Below the pieces are notes generated by a model. It ran no database searches. It was given only the letters and a program-made list of their open reading frames with translations, and was not told the DNA's origin. The position numbers were made by a program, and so were the translations under genes. 20,127 nucleotides of DNA. Source: a virus. Location: the IMG/VR virus record IMGVR_UViG_3300044626_001398, positions 1 to 20,127 of that record, one strand, 5' to 3'. Positions 10,857 to 20,127 of this stretch are shown here, piece after piece; position 1 is the first letter of the stretch; the number at the start of each line of letters is the position of its first letter.

Positions 10857-12235
10857 GGGGCATCGATTCTGTCATGAAGGGATACGCCGCCGGGGGCAGC
10901 GTCAACCCCTTCACCGCTTATGCCGGGGGAGGAGTCAATCCCTTCACGGCTTTGGCGGCCCTTCCTTCTCGACCTACCTATGCCCCTTCGCAAGTTTCCG
11001 TGACCCCCGTTTCCACTCCCGGGTACATGTCCATCTACGGCAATCTTTCCGCCGTGGCTGCAGAACAGGCCCGGCGCAGAGCCTCCACTTCGGTACCAGA
11101 TACCGCCATTGCCATCTCCACTCCGGGAACCAATGAATCTGTGAGTCAGGGCGTCCATACCCTAGGAGATTTCGTGCCCGCTCCTACCACCCAAAGCACC
11201 CCGGGGGAAGGAATTGTCACCATCTCCTCTCCCTCCAATCCTATGGCTGATGCCCTAAGCAGGTACGGTGGCGAATTGCCTGGGGCTGATATTGCCAACC
11301 CTACAGCAACCATGCTTGCCAATGCTCTCGATGCTTACGGGGGCGAGGTTCCAGGTCTAGATGCTACTCCTATGACTCAACCTTCAGGGGGGTCTACCCT
11401 AGGAGATCTGGCGAAAGCCGGGTTAAGTGCCCTGACCTTTGGCCCCGCGTCTTTCTTTGACATCCTCGGAGGAATTGCGGCATCTCAGTACAAGGATCCT
11501 TCCGGCCCAGTCCAAACTCTGTCCCAGATGCTCACAGGTGCGCCCGGCTATTCTCCGGAGGCTCTCGCAGAAATGAAAGCCCGAGGGGAAGACGCAGGCA
11601 TAGCGGCTGCTCAAGCGATCCAAAGTGGCTACCTTACCCCGGATTTGGCAGCCACCATTCTCACCAACAATCCCAACCTTGTTGGCAGTGTTTCTCCCGC
11701 TGTGACTGCAATGGAAAACTACCTTAAATCCGAGACCCCTTCGCCAGAGTATTTTACTCCAGAAGTCTTGGACAATCTTCTCAGCAATCTCAGCGACAAT
11801 ACCATCACTCGCGACGAATCCAAGGCAGCCGTAGACGAAGCGTTTGGAAACATCGCGGGCCTCGGCGCCTACTCTCTTTCGACAGATACCGTTAGCGGCA
11901 GCGACGCTAGTGGTGGGGGATTCTCTGCGGGAGATGGGCAGCAGGACCCGGGAGGTGGCTGGGCTGAAGGCGGCTACATTCCCGGGAACAGCGGAGGCAT
12001 GGATGATGATGTGCCCGCAGTCATCGATGGCAAGCGACCCGCGCGACTGTCTTCTGGCGAATTCGTTTTTGATGCCGCAACCGTAGCCGCGTTTGGCGAT
12101 GGCAACAACGCGGCGGGGGCCCGCAAGTTGGACAAGTTGCGTAAAGCTATCCGCACCAAAGCCTACGGTCATCCCAAGCAACCACCTAAGAATTTTTCTG
12201 TGGGGGATTTGATTCGTGCTTATGACAGAAAGTGA
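10853..12235 (+). CDS. Virion protein with Gly-rich N-terminus and GEFVFDAATV C-terminal module
   Basis: A 460-residue protein. The N-terminus holds MKGYAAGGSVNPFTAYAGGGVNPFTALA, a short tandem duplication rich in Gly. The middle is Pro/Ser/Thr-rich with two similar stretches (PMADALSRYGGELPGAD and MLANALDAYGGEVPGLD), then helices (EALAEMKARGEDAGIAAAQAI). The C-terminus, with GGYIPGNSGGMDDDVPAVIDG, PARLSSGEFVFDAATVAAFGDGNNAAGARKLDKL, is a module I recognise from podovirus virion proteins and some T7-group proteins (SDGEFVIPADVV type). It is thought to be structural; its precise role is unknown. It lies directly before the acetyltransferase and internal-protein genes. Confidence 0.65.
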   Translation: MRGIDSVMKGYAAGGSVNPFTAYAGGGVNPFTALAALPSRPTYAPSQVSVTPVSTPGYMSIYGNLSAVAAEQARRRASTSVPDTAIAISTPGTNESVSQGVHTLGDFVPAPTTQSTPGEGIVTISSPSNPMADALSRYGGELPGADIANPTATMLANALDAYGGEVPGLDATPMTQPSGGSTLGDLAKAGLSALTFGPASFFDILGGIAASQYKDPSGPVQTLSQMLTGAPGYSPEALAEMKARGEDAGIAAAQAIQSGYLTPDLAATILTNNPNLVGSVSPAVTAMENYLKSETPSPEYFTPEVLDNLLSNLSDNTITRDESKAAVDEAFGNIAGLGAYSLSTDTVSGSDASGGGFSAGDGQQDPGGGWAEGGYIPGNSGGMDDDVPAVIDGKRPARLSSGEFVFDAATVAAFGDGNNAAGARKLDKLRKAIRTKAYGHPKQPPKNFSVGDLIRAYDRK

Positions 12236-12638
12236 CATTCCGCATATCCTTCCCCTTCTGCAGGAGATGCACGAAACCAGCCCCCTCAAATTGCCGCCCC
12301 TCTCCCTCCCCAAGGTAGAAGCTACCCTGCGCAATTGTTTGCGGGATGGCGTTGTCTTTCTTGCGCCTCGCTACGAAGGCATCCTGGCTCTCCGCCATTG
12401 CGCTTTCTGGTATAGCGATGCCACTTTTCTGGCAGACCAAGTCTTCTACGTTTCTGTCCACCATCGCAAATCTCGTCACGCCCTCCGCCTATTGTGCGCG
12501 GCCAAAGCCTATGCTAAAATGCGCAATCTTCCTCTCCTCATGGCCACTTCTCATGGGGGCGATGTGGAAAGGAAGAATAACTTCTACCAGCGCAGCGGGA
12601 TGCGGCTGATAGGCGGTGTTTTTGAAAGGGGACTCTAA
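12222..12638 (+). CDS. GNAT-type N-acetyltransferase-like protein
   Basis: A 138-residue protein with the short GNAT layout: an N-terminal helix-loop (SDIPHILPLLQEMHETS), strand segments (GVVFLAPRYEGILALRHCAFWYSDATFLADQVFYVSV), then HHRKSRHALRLLCAAKAYAKM (80-100), the place of the acetyl-CoA pyrophosphate loop, and FYQRSGMRLIGGVF (121-134), the usual motif-B end. The loop reads RKSRHA rather than the classical R/QxxGxG/A, common in phage members but leaving activity uncertain. GNAT proteins transfer acetyl from acetyl-CoA to an amine; the substrate here is unknown. ATG 12222 overlaps the upstream gene by 14 bases; GTG 12216 is an alternative. Being inside the structural block suggests late expression. 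Confidence 0.65.
   Translation: MTESDIPHILPLLQEMHETSPLKLPPLSLPKVEATLRNCLRDGVVFLAPRYEGILALRHCAFWYSDATFLADQVFYVSVHHRKSRHALRLLCAAKAYAKMRNLPLLMATSHGGDVERKNNFYQRSGMRLIGGVFERGL
12625..12632 (+). promoter_or_regulatory. Shine-Dalgarno-like element for the 12638 gene
   Basis: AAAGGGGA lies five bases before ATG 12638, within the last codons of the acetyltransferase gene, whose TAA overlaps the ATG. Confidence 0.5.
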
Positions 12639-13588
12639 TGGCTTTCCTGTGTTCCTCCAGCACAGACACCGTATCCACTACGGGTAGTACCACCCAGACA
12701 ATCCCCGCGTGGTACGAAGATGCACTGAAGCGTCTTGTCGCAGGCGGCGAAGCGGAACTGGAATCCCAGCCGTACCAGCGATACGATCCCAGCAAGCGGG
12801 TCGCTCCCCTTTCCCCCACAGAAACCGCCGCCATTTCGCAAGTCCCTCTGGCTGCTGGGTCGTATATGCCCGGCCTCTCGGCTGCGATGGGGGCCACGCT
12901 GGCGGGCACTCGCAGCCTTGCCCCCGAGGTGACCACGATGGGGGACAAGACTGTTACGACTCCGGGGGCCGATCTCTCCCCCTACATGAATCCCTACACT
13001 CAGTACGTCACCGACATCGCCCAGCGGGAAGCCATCCGCGATTACCAGAAGATGGTTCCACAAATGGGCTTCGAAGCTAGCCGCCAAGGTGCTTTTGGCG
13101 GCGCACGGTACGGTGTGCAGGAAGCCGAAAATCTTCGCAACTTAGGGCAGCGACTTTCTGACATCGAGACCCGGGGTTTGGAATCCGCCTTCACCGCAGG
13201 CACGGGCCTTTTTGAAAGGGAAGCCCAGCGCAATCTTGCCGCTGCCCCTATCTTTGGCAACATTGGGGCGCAAGCCCAGCAGCTAGGCCTCGGCGGGCTT
13301 CAGGCTACGATGCAGGCCCAGGCACTCCCACGTAGTCTTGAGCAGCAGCAGCGGGACCTGGAATTCCAGGAATACTTGCGAGGCCAAGGCTACGGGATGG
13401 GGCAACTGGGGGCTTTGTCCGGTTTGATCCGAGGTGTTTCTCCAGGGGGTACCACCACGACTACCAGCCAGCAACCTATCGCCCAGCAATCCCCCCTCTC
13501 CACTGCCGCGGGATTGGGCCTCGCGGGGGCAGGCATCTACAATCTTACAGGGGGCAAATTCAACCCCTTTTCTTTCTTTGGGAGTTGA
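12638..13588 (+). CDS. Internal virion-type protein (GAFGGARYG family)
   Basis: A 316-residue protein. It begins with a Ser/Thr-rich stretch leading to TIPAWYEDALKRL (21-33) and YQRYDPSKRVAPLS, then DLSPYMNPYTQYVTDIAQREAIRDYQK (112-138), ASRQGAFGGARYGVQEAENLRNLG (147-170), a long Gln/Ala-rich helix (about 170-260) and a C-terminal hydrophobic Gly-rich segment (STAAGLGLAGAGIYNLTGG) before a Phe-rich tail. The SPYM.PY..YV...QRE and GAFGG.R motifs are those of a common phage virion protein placed before ejection-protein genes. A role inside the particle or in DNA entry is inferred. Helical and mildly membrane-active character fits that. Confidence 0.65.
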   Translation: MAFLCSSSTDTVSTTGSTTQTIPAWYEDALKRLVAGGEAELESQPYQRYDPSKRVAPLSPTETAAISQVPLAAGSYMPGLSAAMGATLAGTRSLAPEVTTMGDKTVTTPGADLSPYMNPYTQYVTDIAQREAIRDYQKMVPQMGFEASRQGAFGGARYGVQEAENLRNLGQRLSDIETRGLESAFTAGTGLFEREAQRNLAAAPIFGNIGAQAQQLGLGGLQATMQAQALPRSLEQQQRDLEFQEYLRGQGYGMGQLGALSGLIRGVSPGGTTTTTSQQPIAQQSPLSTAAGLGLAGAGIYNLTGGKFNPFSFFGS

Positions 13589-13597
13589 GACTTCGCC

Positions 13598-14824
13598 ATG
13601 GAAACGTGGAAAGAATTCCAAGATTTCCTCAACGCCAAATCGCTGGAAGAGTTGCAGACACTTCGGGGGCACCCCGCGTATTCGGGGGCGATGTCTCAGC
13701 AGCAAATTCAAAACGCCATCTACCAAAAACAACTTGAAGGATACAAGGGCAGGTCTTTCGGTACTCAAATTTTGGAAGGCTTTCGGCGGCTTACGTCACC
13801 TCTGGAATCCCTTACGTCCAAACCTCCGGGGAAACTGCCTCTGGTTGGCAGCACTCGCACGGATGCATATGGCCGAGGTCCGGGGGAAGAAACCAGCCAG
13901 GGAATCCCCATTCCTCCGAGTCCCCCGCCAAAAGCTCCGGAAGCTATCCCGACAGCGACCCCAGAAGCGGAAGCCCCCGCGCCTCGCCAAGCATCCCCCG
14001 CAGTGGCTCTTCCTTCGCCGCCTCGGGTCACTCCAATGGATCCCGAAAAGATCCTTAGCACCATCCCCCAGGTGCCTCCTCGGGAAGAAGAAAAAACCTT
14101 TAAGGCCGATCCGTACATGACGATGCTGCAGACGGGTTTGCGCATCCTCGCAGCCAAGCCTGAATTGGGGCAATCGGCCATCTCTCAGATCGCGGGTCCC
14201 CTGGCTGCAGGGGTCGAACAGTACCGGGGAGAGAAGCGCGAAGAGACCAAGGCTGCTCGGGAAGAGAGGGCTGCCCAGCGGGAAGACCTCTACAAGCGGG
14301 CGCAAATTGGCCAGCAGGCTGCCACCCTTACTGCCAACATCGTGGGCAAGAATCAGGAATTGGCTGTCTCTTTGGCGAGGGCGGGAGCCGATCAAACTTC
14401 CGCAGCCGCGCAGATGCTGCGCGCCCAGTCGGAAGCAAACTTCAACGAATTCCGCCAAAGGGTCCAGGACCCGCAAGTCATCAACGCAATGGCATCCCAA
14501 CTGGCTCGGCGCAACACGGCCATCGAAGACATGCTTCGGGATCCCAAGTTGGATCCTGCGAAGCGGCGGGAGTTGCAGGCCGAAGCTAGTCTCAACCGAG
14601 ACAACATCAATACTATCCGGGGGACCAGCCGCGCCGAAGTAGCCGCCGGGGCAACCACGGATCGCAGCACCGTTTCCGCTGCTGCCTCCTTGCGGGCGCA
14701 GGCAGCCAAGCTGCAGCTTGTCGATCCGGTGGCCGCAAAACAGTTGATGGATCTTGCGGAGTCTTTGGATCCTCGCGTCACTGCGCCGGATATGTCTAGC
14801 CTTCCTCCTCGCCCCTCTCGGTGA
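13598..14824 (+). CDS. Internal virion-type protein with Pro-rich linker and helical tail
   Basis: A 408-residue protein in three parts. Residues 1-100 form a small helical domain (METWKEFQDFLNAKSLEELQ, QQQIQNAIYQKQLEGYKG). Residues about 102-162 are a Pro/Ala linker (PIPPSPPPKAPEAIP and similar). Residues 168-408 are almost wholly helical and rich in Ala, Gln, Arg and Glu, starting with TMLQTGLRILAAKPELGQSAISQIAGPLAAGVEQYRGEKR, a sequence type typical of phage internal or ejection proteins, and continuing as likely coiled coil (REERAAQREDLYKRAQ). No enzyme signature. It lies nine bases after the previous gene, and its TGA overlaps a GTG start of the next. Confidence 0.6.
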   Translation: METWKEFQDFLNAKSLEELQTLRGHPAYSGAMSQQQIQNAIYQKQLEGYKGRSFGTQILEGFRRLTSPLESLTSKPPGKLPLVGSTRTDAYGRGPGEETSQGIPIPPSPPPKAPEAIPTATPEAEAPAPRQASPAVALPSPPRVTPMDPEKILSTIPQVPPREEEKTFKADPYMTMLQTGLRILAAKPELGQSAISQIAGPLAAGVEQYRGEKREETKAAREERAAQREDLYKRAQIGQQAATLTANIVGKNQELAVSLARAGADQTSAAAQMLRAQSEANFNEFRQRVQDPQVINAMASQLARRNTAIEDMLRDPKLDPAKRRELQAEASLNRDNINTIRGTSRAEVAAGATTDRSTVSAAASLRAQAAKLQLVDPVAAKQLMDLAESLDPRVTAPDMSSLPPRPSR

Positions 14825-17800
14825 CCCCCATGGAAACTCCTCGTAAGCTGGAGTGGGATGACGCCACCAACGCCTGGGTTCCGGCAGTGGGCAAAGCTGG
14901 AGCTTCCTTCGTTGAGTGGGACGGGTTCAAGTGGGTCGAAGGTAAAAACCCTGAAGGTCCCGGGGCTTTCCGTCGAGGCCTTGCCACGGGGATGGAGCAA
15001 ATCAAGGGCACCCTTGCTGATGTTATCCCGGCGATGGCCCAGCAGGCATTGGGGTATGACGAAGCAGCCAAGCGCAACCTTGAGGAGTACAAGGCGCGCA
15101 TGGAAGCCCTTCGTGCCCAGGGTCTCTTGGCAGATACGGACTACCGTAACGTACAAGATCTGTCGTCTGCCCTCACTTTCGCAGGCGAGGCAGTAGGCCA
15201 GACTCTTCCTTCCCTTGCTACCTCCATTCTCGGCGGCGTTGGTGTTGGGGCGGGGGCTGCCCGGCTTGGGGCGGGTCGCCTTCTTAGTGGCCAAGTGGCC
15301 AAGCGGGCCGCAGAGTTGGAAGGTCGTACCGTTGCGGGGGAAGTCCTCACCAAGGAAGCCGCTCTCGCCATCGCCACCAAGGAGGCCGCCAACAAGGCAG
15401 GCCTTGCGGCTGGCGCTTTTGGCGGATCCGCTCTCCTCAACATCCCGGAATCCTACCAGTCTTTGGCGGAAGCAGGCAATGCTTCCCTTGGCGCAGCTTT
15501 CGCGGTGGGTACCCTTAAATCTACTCTCGATGCTCTGGGCCCCATCCGCCTTCTTACCCGTGTCCGGGGGCCGGAGTTTTCTGACAAACTCACGGATCTC
15601 ATTAGTGCCCGCCTTCTGAAAAATAAACCGGGAGTCGCAGGAACGGTGGGCGGCACCCTTGAGACTGCCGCCTTGGAGGGCCTCACAGAAGGTACCCAGC
15701 AACTCCTCGATGAGACAGCCGCTGCAATCCTCGCAGACAAATCCATTGATTGGAACCAAGTCATCAATGCGGCATTGATTGGCGGTGTCGGTGCTGCCCC
15801 CGTAGGCGCAGGAGCCGGGGCCCTAGGCGCTCGCCGCAAAGCTGCAGCAGAAACCGCAGAAACTGCAGCCGCCGAGGAAAGGCAAACCCAGCAGCAAGCT
15901 GCTCGGCAAAAGCAAATCCAGGAAACCGAGGAAGCTCTGTCCTTTCCGGAAGACTACGCTATCCGGCGGGAATTCGAAGAGATCAAAGATTCTGCAGGCT
16001 ACACCCAACTTGCAGACTACTTCGCTTCCAAGGCTAGGGAGAAGGGAGTCTCCCAAAAAAATCGAGACCGTTATTGGGAACAAGCCACCCGCTATAATAC
16101 GTTGGCCAAGACGGCGGATGCGGAGAATCTTGTCTCCCGTCTCGCCCAATACTACAACCTCAACGAGGAACAGGAGGCGGCCCTTCTTCGTTCGGCTACG
16201 GATTTCGGCGGCCCCAAGAGGGCAGAATTTGAAAACTTCGTGGCGGAAGTCCTCAAGGATCCCGCCGCAGTTGGCGCTATCCCCGGCCTGCAGACAGTAG
16301 AATTTTTATCTGTAACTCCCGCCCAGCCAGCCCAACTTCTCCTTCCGCCCCCCACGGAATTTTCCCTGGATGTTCCTGGCATCGGGGTCTTGACCCCCAA
16401 GCAAGCCGATGCTTACGTCAAGAGAATCTACGCCCAGCTTCAGCAGAAGCAGGATGAAGAACCTTCCGTGGATCGGGAAGAAAAGCTGTCCCAACTCAAT
16501 CAGCTTGACCCCACGGTAAACACCCAAGCCGCGACTATCGATCCCAACGAGCGGCGGCGTATCGCCTTGAGTATCGCCACCGGGATCGACGTTTCCCAAA
16601 TCCTGCAGCCCACGGAAACCCGTCTCCCTTCCGGGGAGACCGCCGAGACTTTGGAACCGGGGGAGCGGGTGACTCCCACAGGACAGGTCGGTACCCGGGA
16701 AGCTGCCTTAACATACGACAATCTGTATCAGCGGATAGTTGACAATCTTCCAAACGCTCCCGCCAAGGCTCTGGGGTTGCAGTGGCTGCAAGAAGCTGCG
16801 GGTTTCAAAAATCTTCCGCCCCCGCAAAATCCGCAAGATGCTGAAGCCGCCAAAGCTTACGCGAAGGATCAGGCAATCGGGGAAGCTGTCCGCGACAACG
16901 CCAAATATATCTGGCCGATGCTTGAGATGGAAGGGCGCATCGAGAAGCGGGGGTTCGGATACAAAGTGCGGCCCGAGGGCTTGCGCTTGCAGGAGTTGGG
17001 CGAAAAGGAAATCGACCGAATCGTCAACCTCCCCCGCCTGCAGCAAGCCCTCGATGCAGAGGCGGGCAAGGGTAAGAACTTGGGCCTCTCCTGGCTCACC
17101 AAGACCGTGCAACTTCCGGCAGCCCCGAAGGCGAGGCAGGCTGGTATTCGCCCGCGCGAAGCCCAGATGATATGGGATCGTCTGGAAGAGATGGGGTATG
17201 TCACCAAGGCGGGAGCCTTCTACAACGCCCTGCCCAAAGACCAAAGGGTTGCGAAGCCTCCGAAACCCAAGCCCCCGCCGTCAGCCCCGCCAGTAGCCAC
17301 GCCCCTGGGCAAACTTCCCCCGAATCTTCCGGCGGGAAAGTGGTCGCAGGACGGCGTGGATCTTTTGCCAGATCAGATCGCTAAACTGGATTCGCAACTT
17401 GAAGCCGAAGCCCGAGTCGGGTGGTCACAGCTTACGACGATAGACGAAAAGATTGGGCACCTCCGGTACAAACTTCTTTCCGAGCAGCGTCGAACTGGGT
17501 ACGAACATGCTGTAGTATTCAACCCTGCTGGAGATATCCTGTATGTTCACACGGACAGCGTAAGCGATTCGGTATCAACTCCAACTTCTTTCAAGGGACA
17601 CACCCTTGAGCCTGACAACAATTTGATATTTCAGCATTCGCATCCAAACAACTCTGTATCATCCTCGGGGGACACGGGGGCATTTTTTTATTCCCCAGGA
17701 ATTCTGGCGCAATTTGCCCACGGAGCCAAGGGCGCAGATGCCGTAACCTTTTCCACCTTCAAGACGCAGCAACACCCTGAAACCTTCAGGAAGGGGATCC

Positions 17801-18507
17801 TTGCCACGCATAGGACGGCGATTGCCTGGGGCTTGCTAAACTACCAAAAAGCAGCGTATAAATTTTTCCATTCTTGGGTAGCTGCCAACATCACTTCCAA
17901 GACCGCAAATAGAGAAGATAGATTCTTGTTGGCGGTTCGGCTTGGAAATCTGGCTGTCATGCGTACGGGGCTCATAGATTTTGCAGATACTGGCCCGGAC
18001 TTGTTAGATTTTGTACCTGGGTGGGAAGCTGCTATTGAGGCAAACCACAAAAACTGGTCGGCCTCCTCCGGCCTTGACTCTGCCATTGCCAATTCAGGGT
18101 ACCAATCCTTACAGAATGAGATGGACAACTATGGAAGACAATTCGCTGACAACTATCGTAGATACTCCCAGTCCTTTCGCCAGCCCGGAGGTTTTGAAAA
18201 ACTACTCCAGGACATTGGCGCGCCTTCCCCCGGGTCCGTACCGGGATCGGCTGCTGAAGGAATTCCAGGAGTTTCCGAAGATACGCCAGGAGGTGATGGA
18301 AATCGAAAAGCGGCGAGGGCTGAAGATTTAAGTCAGCGATCCGAAACCCCAAAAACTATCGACCAACTTTCCCAGACTTCCCGCCAGGGATTCCCCCAAG
18401 GCACCCCGGCCCAGATGCAGAAGCGTCTTGACTCGATGTTCGACAGGATGGAGCGGTTGCAGAAAGCCGCTGACGATGCTATATCTGACGACTATTCGTG
18501 CGGGTAA
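14821..18507 (+). CDS. 1228-residue internal virion protein carrying a JAMM/JAB-like domain
   Basis: A large ejection-type protein. Start: GTG 14821 overlaps the previous stop (GTGA); ATG 14830 is the alternative. Numbering is from 14821. The N-terminal third has helical and Gly/Ala-rich hydrophobic stretches (near 131-160, 190-215 and 318-338) that could insert in membranes, followed by an Ala/Glu/Gln coiled coil (339-380). Two similar winged-helix-like segments lie at about 651-707 and 754-795. A Pro-rich linker (about 812-842) precedes a JAMM-like signature: E895 on a strand, HSHP at 939-942, S948 and D951, matching E...HxHPx(n)SxxD of zinc-dependent JAB/MPN proteins. A helical region and a Ser/Gly/Pro-rich tail follow. 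Proteolytic function is inferred, not shown. Family and size fit an internal virion protein entering the cell with DNA. Confidence 0.6.
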   Translation: MTPMETPRKLEWDDATNAWVPAVGKAGASFVEWDGFKWVEGKNPEGPGAFRRGLATGMEQIKGTLADVIPAMAQQALGYDEAAKRNLEEYKARMEALRAQGLLADTDYRNVQDLSSALTFAGEAVGQTLPSLATSILGGVGVGAGAARLGAGRLLSGQVAKRAAELEGRTVAGEVLTKEAALAIATKEAANKAGLAAGAFGGSALLNIPESYQSLAEAGNASLGAAFAVGTLKSTLDALGPIRLLTRVRGPEFSDKLTDLISARLLKNKPGVAGTVGGTLETAALEGLTEGTQQLLDETAAAILADKSIDWNQVINAALIGGVGAAPVGAGAGALGARRKAAAETAETAAAEERQTQQQAARQKQIQETEEALSFPEDYAIRREFEEIKDSAGYTQLADYFASKAREKGVSQKNRDRYWEQATRYNTLAKTADAENLVSRLAQYYNLNEEQEAALLRSATDFGGPKRAEFENFVAEVLKDPAAVGAIPGLQTVEFLSVTPAQPAQLLLPPPTEFSLDVPGIGVLTPKQADAYVKRIYAQLQQKQDEEPSVDREEKLSQLNQLDPTVNTQAATIDPNERRRIALSIATGIDVSQILQPTETRLPSGETAETLEPGERVTPTGQVGTREAALTYDNLYQRIVDNLPNAPAKALGLQWLQEAAGFKNLPPPQNPQDAEAAKAYAKDQAIGEAVRDNAKYIWPMLEMEGRIEKRGFGYKVRPEGLRLQELGEKEIDRIVNLPRLQQALDAEAGKGKNLGLSWLTKTVQLPAAPKARQAGIRPREAQMIWDRLEEMGYVTKAGAFYNALPKDQRVAKPPKPKPPPSAPPVATPLGKLPPNLPAGKWSQDGVDLLPDQIAKLDSQLEAEARVGWSQLTTIDEKIGHLRYKLLSEQRRTGYEHAVVFNPAGDILYVHTDSVSDSVSTPTSFKGHTLEPDNNLIFQHSHPNNSVSSSGDTGAFFYSPGILAQFAHGAKGADAVTFSTFKTQQHPETFRKGILATHRTAIAWGLLNYQKAAYKFFHSWVAANITSKTANREDRFLLAVRLGNLAVMRTGLIDFADTGPDLLDFVPGWEAAIEANHKNWSASSGLDSAIANSGYQSLQNEMDNYGRQFADNYRRYSQSFRQPGGFEKLLQDIGAPSPGSVPGSAAEGIPGVSEDTPGGDGNRKAARAEDLSQRSETPKTIDQLSQTSRQGFPQGTPAQMQKRLDSMFDRMERLQKAADDAISDDYSCG

Positions 18508-20127
18508 TGACGATGATTTGTAATCCCTCCAAGTCTGCTGTCGTCAACCGCGAGATGGAAAGGGCTGTCGCCCTCCGGCGCATCGAGGAGACGAAGGAGA
18601 AATCACCTTCTCTCCTCAAGCAGCTTGGTTTTGCCCAGCTTTTCGCCAACGGCTTCATCCAGATCGACAACCTTGCTACGCGCTTTCCCCCGCTACGTCC
18701 ATTCGTGGAAGCCCTCCACATTGGGGAGAAGATGCGCAGCAATATGTCCCACGAATACAACCCCACATTGCGGGAAGTGGGAGACCTTTCCGATTCAGAC
18801 AGCGGAAAGATCATGCGTCTCGTAGAAGCCGCCAACGCCGGGGACAAGGTGACTCAGAATGCGGATGGCAGCGCCACCGTCGTTGCGTCCAAAGATTACG
18901 TTGGCTTAAAGAAGGGCCAATCCTACACGCTGCCTCCCAAACTCAACGCCACCCTCAACAAGGTGCGTACCTCTCTCGACTCCCTCTACGACAACGTCAT
19001 CCGCGCCACCGCCGCAGACTTGGGCTACGCCCCAGACACCCCCACTTCCCAGATGAAACCCGAGGACGCGGAAGTCATTAGCCTCCTCCTGGAGTCCCGC
19101 CGAGACAACTACTTCCCCCAGGTCCGCCGAGGTCGCTACGCCATCCAGTACATCCGCACAGTGGACGGCAAGCCTGTCAAACATCTGGAAGGTTTTGAAG
19201 CCTCCCTGGAAAAATCCCTTGCCCCCCTGAAAACTTCTCTCTCGCGCGTCAAGAATCGAGAAGCGGAATTACGCAAAGACCCCACCATCTCCGATATCGT
19301 CGTCCGCGATCTTCAGCAGGAACAGGAGATCTTCGACCTATATACTCCCAACGTGGACAGCCTGACAGCCATCGACTCCCTCTTTCAGGCCATCATGCTT
19401 CCCAACCAGAAGGATGCCTACGACACCACCCGCAAAGTCCTTCAGCGACTCAAGGCGGAAAGGGCGTCCAGCAGGCAGCAGCGTCTTCGTCGTCGCGCCG
19501 ATGTTCCAGGATGGCTGCGGGAAGATAACTTCGATACCTACTTCAGGAGTACCTTCCCATCTTACGTCTTCAGTATGTCGGACTACATCGCCAACAAAGC
19601 CACCGAGGGGCTGAGGCGAGAATCCATCAACAAAATTGGGGATGGCCAACTCCAAAAAATTGCCCGGGATACCGAAGAGTATCTCCATAGCGACGAGGCT
19701 GCCGTCGCGCGCCTCAAAAATTTCACCTTCCTCTACACCATTGGCGGCAATCTTTCTTCTGCCTTGGTGCAGCCGACCCAACTCCTGCATACTACGTGGC
19801 CTCTTTTGTCTGGCATCGGAGGCACAGGCCGCGCGGCCACCATTCTTGCCAAGGCCACCACCGATATCATCGGCGGTTTCTCTTTCAAGACCACTGCCGA
19901 AGATATCTTCAACATCGATAAGATGAAACTTCCTGCCGATGAGAAACAACTCCTTAGAGACATGTTTCGCAATGGGGTGGCAGAAGCCCTGCTGACTCGG
20001 GATCAGGCCCCCTCTTGGCTATCTCGCAGCCAGGACCCCAACATCTATGCCTTGGGCAAGGCTACCGGAAACGTGATGTCGGCCTTCTCCTTGGCCTTCG
20101 CTACCACGGAAACCCTCAATCGACTTG
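18507..20127 (+). CDS. Large internal virion protein, N-terminal part (runs off right edge)
   Basis: An open frame of 540 codons without a stop to the window end. ATG 18507 overlaps the previous TAA; a second ATG six bases on is an alternative. Mostly helical: AVVNREMERAVALRRIEETKEKSPSLLKQLGFAQLF at the start, DNYFPQVRRGRYAIQYIRTVDGKPV (about 215-240), a charged coiled-coil region (240-340), then a more hydrophobic part with FTFLYTIGGNLSSALVQPTQL (N415 in NLSSALV). NLSSALVNxTQ-like segments occur in giant phage proteins named PLxRFG-domain or internal virion proteins; the diagnostic C-terminus lies outside the window. It is likely carried in the particle and ejected. No catalytic motif is visible in this part. 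Confidence 0.65.
   Translation, partial: MTMICNPSKSAVVNREMERAVALRRIEETKEKSPSLLKQLGFAQLFANGFIQIDNLATRFPPLRPFVEALHIGEKMRSNMSHEYNPTLREVGDLSDSDSGKIMRLVEAANAGDKVTQNADGSATVVASKDYVGLKKGQSYTLPPKLNATLNKVRTSLDSLYDNVIRATAADLGYAPDTPTSQMKPEDAEVISLLLESRRDNYFPQVRRGRYAIQYIRTVDGKPVKHLEGFEASLEKSLAPLKTSLSRVKNREAELRKDPTISDIVVRDLQQEQEIFDLYTPNVDSLTAIDSLFQAIMLPNQKDAYDTTRKVLQRLKAERASSRQQRLRRRADVPGWLREDNFDTYFRSTFPSYVFSMSDYIANKATEGLRRESINKIGDGQLQKIARDTEEYLHSDEAAVARLKNFTFLYTIGGNLSSALVQPTQLLHTTWPLLSGIGGTGRAATILAKATTDIIGGFSFKTTAEDIFNIDKMKLPADEKQLLRDMFRNGVAEALLTRDQAPSWLSRSQDPNIYALGKATGNVMSAFSLAFATTETLNRL

Follow-up and report, generated by a model that had tools for sequence, protein, structure and literature searches.

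What enzyme does a large ejection-type protein of an uncultured phage carry behind a JAMM-like zinc motif, how did it come to be there, and what might it do in the infected cell? These questions are raised by a 20,127-base IMG/VR virus record, probably a fragment, which was analysed over its whole length and is called the window below. It holds a run of virion genes on the plus strand: adaptor-like and fibre-like genes, genes for a phage stabilisation protein (phrog_3287) and a DNA ejection protein (phrog_4287), and then the open reading frame (ORF) under study. The features referred to below are the following.

12638-13588, plus strand: neighbouring gene like the phrog_4287 DNA ejection protein (E = 9.6e-23)
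14821-18507, plus strand: ORF of the ejection-type (polyvalent) protein, 1,228 aa from GTG 14821
14830-15855, plus strand: conserved N-terminal part, approximately residues 4-345, 45-69% identical in 11 relatives
16021-17214, plus strand: middle region, residues 401-798, common to relatives L020 and L014 up to residue 798, with winged-helix-like repeats seen by eye
17437-17745, plus strand: predicted core of the RadC-like JAB/JAMM domain, residues 873-975 (AlphaFold pLDDT about 90)
17503-17505, plus strand: E895, predicted catalytic glutamate (E in 69/69 family members)
17635-17643, plus strand: H939-S-H941, predicted zinc ligands (from the family alignment)
17662-17673, plus strand: S948-x-x-D951, predicted active-site serine and third zinc ligand (from the family alignment)
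17746-18210, plus strand: helical extension of the module, residues 976-1130, common to L061 and L041 (low-confidence model)
18391-18504, plus strand: conserved C-terminal tail, residues 1191-1228, ending DDYSCG, retained across payload types
18498-20126, plus strand: next gene, PLxRFG/tail-700-like large virion protein (score below the curated cut-off), truncated by the window end

A JAMM motif in a large, probable virion protein

Residues were numbered from GTG 14821. The true start is probably ATG 14830, because relatives begin at M4, and residue numbers would then be 3 lower. A preliminary description of the sequence had placed the motif residues E895, H939, H941, S948 and D951 in this ORF, and all five were found at those positions: YEHAVVF spans residues 894-900 (window 17500-17520), HSHP residues 939-942 (window 17635-17646), and SVSSSGD terminates at D951 (window 17673). 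The arrangement E-x(33-52)-HxHP-x(4-8)-SxxD arose in 21 of 200,000 shuffles of the ORF protein, approximately 1 in 10,000, and HxHP followed by SxxD occurs a single time across the six frames of the window. The order E, HxH, SxxD is that of the JAB/JAMM superfamily. In the window domain the spacing is HxH-x6-SxxD, one residue shorter than the textbook JAMM spacing of HxH-x7-SxxD.

A small ORF between the virion genes (12216-12638) gave a weak GNAT acetyltransferase match (E = 0.18), and PADLOC returned no convincing defence family.

Conservation among diverged relatives

Used alone as a query, the window domain found no match in viral contigs, phage records, PDB sequences, Pfam or PHROGs. Because these direct searches failed, relatives were reached through a neighbouring gene, and a search with the stabilisation protein yielded 60 viral contigs. 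When the ejection protein was compared to these contigs by tblastn, its N-terminal part was kept, the middle was variable and the tail was kept; the JAMM region was common to L061 and L041 only. The JAMM domains of these two are 26-28% identical to the window domain, and the motif residues E, H, S, H, P, N, S, G and D are invariant in all three. A scan of the collection with the pattern HSHPxNxxFxxxD gave, among viral contigs, L041 and L061 as the only plausible members, the remainder being short chance frames, and in bacterial genomes a related pattern picked up L120 from Bacillus as a single clear relative, the other matches being unrelated.

Starting from a weak match on an Azospirillum plasmid, Ruegeria phage 45A6 was reached (E = 6e-5) and, with weaker matches, Sinorhizobium phage PBC5 and Agrobacterium phage Atu_ph08. 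In an alignment of nine diverged proteins just six columns remained invariant: E, H, H, P, S and D. Two further viral scans extended the family alignment to 69 rows, most of them retrieved by a pattern that fixed HNHP and the SxxD end and left E free. Since E was no part of the search pattern, its conservation at the E895 position in all 69 rows is an independent test. In rows selected by HNHP, the search itself imposed H, H, P, F, S and D, so their constancy there was given no weight; weight was given to the E and to rows that came by other routes. The key residues are thus conserved among homologues, a point on which the preliminary description had made its proposal depend.

None of the curated Pfam, PHROG and NCBIfam models matches the window domain. 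For Prok-JAB (PF14464) and RadC (PF04002) it has no score above the curated cut-off, also when the whole record was searched; its relatives reached 14.6-17.6 bits against Prok-JAB, where the cut-off is 25.

A bacterial megaplasmid, Azospirillum plasmid pAB510d, encodes a 231-aa protein (L121:5878-6570) that is related to the JAMM domain and stands alone.

Predicted fold and similarity to RadC

With the 69-row alignment as input, AlphaFold modelled residues 873-975 at pLDDT about 90; an input of three sequences gave 43. The predicted order of elements is helix, strand, strand, helix, strand, helix, strand, strand, which is the JAB order. The first strand starts just past E895, the third ends at HSH, and the following helix starts at S948/D951. 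Foldseek placed RadC (2qlc, probability 0.97-0.99), BubCD and the AMSH-like SST2 as best matches. Z scores in VIA were 8.4 for BubCD, 7.9 for P. furiosus JAMM1 (PfJAMM1), 7.2 for an archaeal Rpn11 homologue, 7.0 for RadC and 6.8 for AfJAMM, where differences below 1 count as ties, and 50 of the 50 matches listed have the JAB/MPN or deaminase fold. The strength of these matches is modest (Z 7-8, Foldseek E = 1e-3), and the model compared included the low-confidence helical extension. In a viral structure library the best named matches were phage minor capsid proteins, together with uncharacterised phage proteins. The JAB fold anticipated earlier thus appears in a confident prediction. Taking conservation, fold prediction and profile comparison together, the window domain is a JAB-fold domain with all five predicted catalytic-motif residues.

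Profile comparison by hhalign places the family nearest to JAB domains of the RadC type. The full family matched RadC at E = 2.5e-8 and Prok-JAB at 8e-3; with only those sequences that were not HNHP-selected the values were 4.4e-6 and 0.02, and the corresponding RadC score of 42 compares to at most 23 in 30 column shuffles. In the RadC alignment the motif residues are in register and the gap from HxH to SxxD is one residue shorter than in RadC. The three ejection-protein domains alone matched RadC at E = 0.005, too few sequences for a RadC link.

Exchange of modules on a conserved protein

The same N-terminal part, or chassis, carries different payloads in different relatives. L061 and L031 are 90.6% identical across residues 1-786 and then diverge into a JAMM domain (L061) and a GHKL ATPase with an HExxH motif (L031). 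L020 and L014 match the window protein at residues 7-798 and 1192-1228, with GHKL and HExxH in between, and L065 matches it at residues 4-368 and 1166-1228. A GHKL (HSP90/MutL-like) ATPase above the Pfam cut-off, combined with an HExxH motif in a sub-threshold WLM match, was seen in L020, L014, L058, L031 and L044; other HExxH segments were found in L048, L012, L008 and L065. The JAMM carrier L041 also has a ddrB-ParB domain (133.6 bits), and L034 has a ParB-like C-terminal region, recognised on inspection and from its similarity to L041. An ART-like stretch (YRGV...FWSPS...DEGIEF), seen by eye and lacking a Pfam match, is the payload in L059:5346-8924 and L060:13366-16971. JAMM and HExxH never occur together, in a sample of three JAMM proteins that is too small for significance. 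In a tree of the N-terminal part, proteins with JAMM are interspersed with those that carry zincins, and well-supported branches force at least three changes of label.

These data demonstrate that the JAMM domain is an exchangeable payload in an ejection-type polyvalent protein, of the kind in which several unrelated domains share one polypeptide and are swapped among relatives. The proposal of a separately acquired module in an ejection-type protein therefore stands in its first part, through the swaps and the tree, and in its second part as probable, through homology and gene order. The N-terminal region is weakly similar to phrog_2206 virion RNA polymerase (E = 4.7e-5) and to the virion structural protein phrog_6958. 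We infer packaging of the protein in the particle and its injection along with the DNA, because a DNA ejection gene lies upstream and the N-terminal part resembles the N4 virion RNA polymerase family, in which the N-terminal domain inserts in membranes (PMC12633501). The conserved C-terminal tail may be a packaging signal.

A contrast in GC content had also been offered as a sign of acquisition. Its counts were exact (85/180 vs. 78/120), but as proof it was rejected since the stretches compared had been selected. What held is that the dip spans the module: residues 851-1130 have a GC content of 49.6% compared to 58-60% for residues 1-800, this is the 6th lowest value among 322 sliding 840-nt windows, and L061 and L041 show the same dip in GC and GC3 relative to their N-terminal parts. 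Exchange is shown far better by swapping between near-identical relatives than by GC.

The 38-residue tail (window 18391-18504) ends in Cys-Gly or Cys-Arg among the relatives (DDYSCG, DISCG, YDCR, FSCR), and the next gene overlaps here as well. Sigma-70 region 1.1 was detected in the relatives L061 (L061:18029-18193, residues 709-763, E = 1.3e-14), L058, L031, L044 and L043, and FtsK gamma winged helices in L058 (E = 3.2e-33) and L043; these could possibly be injected decoys or DNA-binding parts.

Proposed function and alternatives

The interpretation that we favour, and consider rather probable, is a RadC-like JAB/JAMM zinc hydrolase carried as a swappable payload of a phage ejection protein, most likely a peptidase. 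The conserved N-terminal part would probably insert into the host membrane as the DNA enters, the swappable enzyme module would be carried behind it, and the conserved tail may direct packaging. The payload would then act in the newly infected cell at once after entry, most likely as a zinc metallopeptidase that cuts a host protein or frees parts of the injected protein. A peptidase is favoured because HExxH zincin-like modules repeatedly fill the same slot. A nucleic-acid or nucleotide reaction stays in the balance because of the kinship to RadC, since a nuclease activity has been proposed for RadC and for toxin JABs. Given the fold, we put a peptidase at slightly short of an even chance, a nucleic-acid or nucleotide hydrolase at a sizeable minority chance, another function or an inactive domain at a distinctly smaller one, and the removal of ubiquitin-like tags at the smallest.

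A substrate other than protein, either nucleic acid or a signalling nucleotide such as a defence second messenger, would fit the profile and Foldseek results that place RadC closest, and also the DNA-binding-type winged helices and the ddrB-ParB domain in ejection-protein relatives. Iyer and colleagues argue, in the parts of their papers seen, that RadC and toxin JABs are nuclease-like members of the deaminase fold (PMC5512222, PMC3482391). The main texts of the literature consulted report no demonstrated RadC-type nuclease activity, however, and the slot otherwise holds HExxH metalloprotease-like, ATPase and ART-like modules, so that we regard this substrate as possible but tentative. The substitution of zincin-like HExxH modules on the same chassis agrees with self-cleavage, in which the protease would divide the large ejection protein into its working parts, either ahead of injection or after it, and autoprocessing is a published proposal for the zincin domains of polyvalent proteins (PMC5512222, main text). 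Yet L059, L060, L038 and L034 share the N- and C-terminal parts and have no visible peptidase motif; because such chassis relatives exist, the chassis does not in general require a peptidase of its own for processing, and self-processing as the role of the domain is doubtful.

Besides proteolysis and cell-wall cleavage, the preliminary description had raised the removal of ubiquitin-like tags that host defence puts on phage particles; such tags would come from bacterial systems of the Bil/Bub type. The top VIA match, BubCD, is part of a bacterial ubiquitin-like system, but its Z of 8.4 ties with the 7.9 of an archaeal JAMM. In addition, the family is RadC-like by profile, and the idea is weakened because the RadC-type clade is argued, in the text seen, to lack a groove for the ubiquitin tail (PMC5512222); annotation by homology showed no ubiquitin-like gene in the window. 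We therefore hold tag removal to be very unlikely. Dead JAB/MPN domains are common in general, and the domain could be a catalytically dead binding or structural part of the virion. This too seems highly improbable, as all five catalytic residues are retained across very diverged members. A broader counter-defence scheme, in which a fixed chassis offers one slot, the JAB payload eliminates, within the first minutes, a signal of host defence or a tag that defence has placed, and payloads are exchanged according to the defences met, is improbable in our estimate. On balance, the JAB domain is most likely an interchangeable tool for the first minutes of infection.

Comparison with known systems

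The RadC-family JAB (PF04002, 2qlc) gave the best match in both Foldseek and profile comparison, and its E, HxHP and SxxD align in register. The window domain differs in its x6 rather than x7 spacing, in falling below Pfam detection, in its place in a large phage ejection protein and in its extra helical extension. The N4 virion RNA polymerase (gp50), weakly similar in its N-terminal region (phrog_2206, E = 4.7e-5), is ejected, its N-terminal part inserting in the membrane and the enzyme behind it lying in the cytoplasm (PMC12633501); the payload here is a predicted JAB hydrolase and not an RNA polymerase. Tox-JAB-1/2 of polymorphic toxins and the JAB of lambda K-type tail proteins belong to the same superfamily and share the E/HxH/S/D motif, but there was no match to the toxin JAB Pfam model above the cut-off (L061 14.4 bits, cut-off 21), and no NlpC/P60 partner or Ubl neighbour was seen. 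MuF and Phage_min_cap2 proteins, from the MuF/minor capsid group known for C-terminal effectors (Jamet et al. 2017, PMC5576092), have homologous JAMM domains at their C-termini. The carrier is a different one, as the ORF protein has no Phage_Mu_F or Phage_min_cap2 match, and the motif there is mostly HNHPxGxxFSxxD, compared to HSHPNNSVSSSGD in the window.

Phage-type polyvalent proteins, including DarB-like ones, are large virion proteins built of many domains, with enzymes swapped as they are here (Iyer et al. 2017, PMC5512222), and L041, which has the same JAMM module as the window, also has ddrB-ParB. Polyvalent proteins, MuF metallopeptidases, the lambda K JAB and RadC in conjugative elements were already known from the parts of the literature covered here (PMC5512222, PMC5576092, PMC3482391). 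The main text of the polyvalent survey names peptidases of the zincin, assemblin-like, DD and LonC kinds and restricts RadC to conjugative elements (PMC5512222); a JAB module in phage ejection proteins is absent from that main text, and the supplements may differ. Because the survey's main text has no JAB peptidase and confines RadC in this way, we count a RadC-like JAB payload in a phage ejection-protein slot, swapped with zincin-like modules on one chassis, as new relative to the main-text literature and as an extension of it. RadC-type JAB domains are widespread and have no agreed reaction, and a stand-alone payload that is traded for a metalloprotease-like module is a natural experiment that narrows the options. 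The ejection protein of these uncultured phages has a definable chassis and payload slot, and effectors delivered before any phage protein synthesis can therefore be listed from sequence.

The DarB-like proteins of PBC5 and Atu_ph08 contain a related JAMM domain, which is new by the same main-text comparison and extends a known kind. In these antirestriction proteins (L123:3969-11543 and L124) the JAMM domain is unannotated and has no Pfam JAB match, and the PBC5 protein also has an SNF2 helicase and LPD39.
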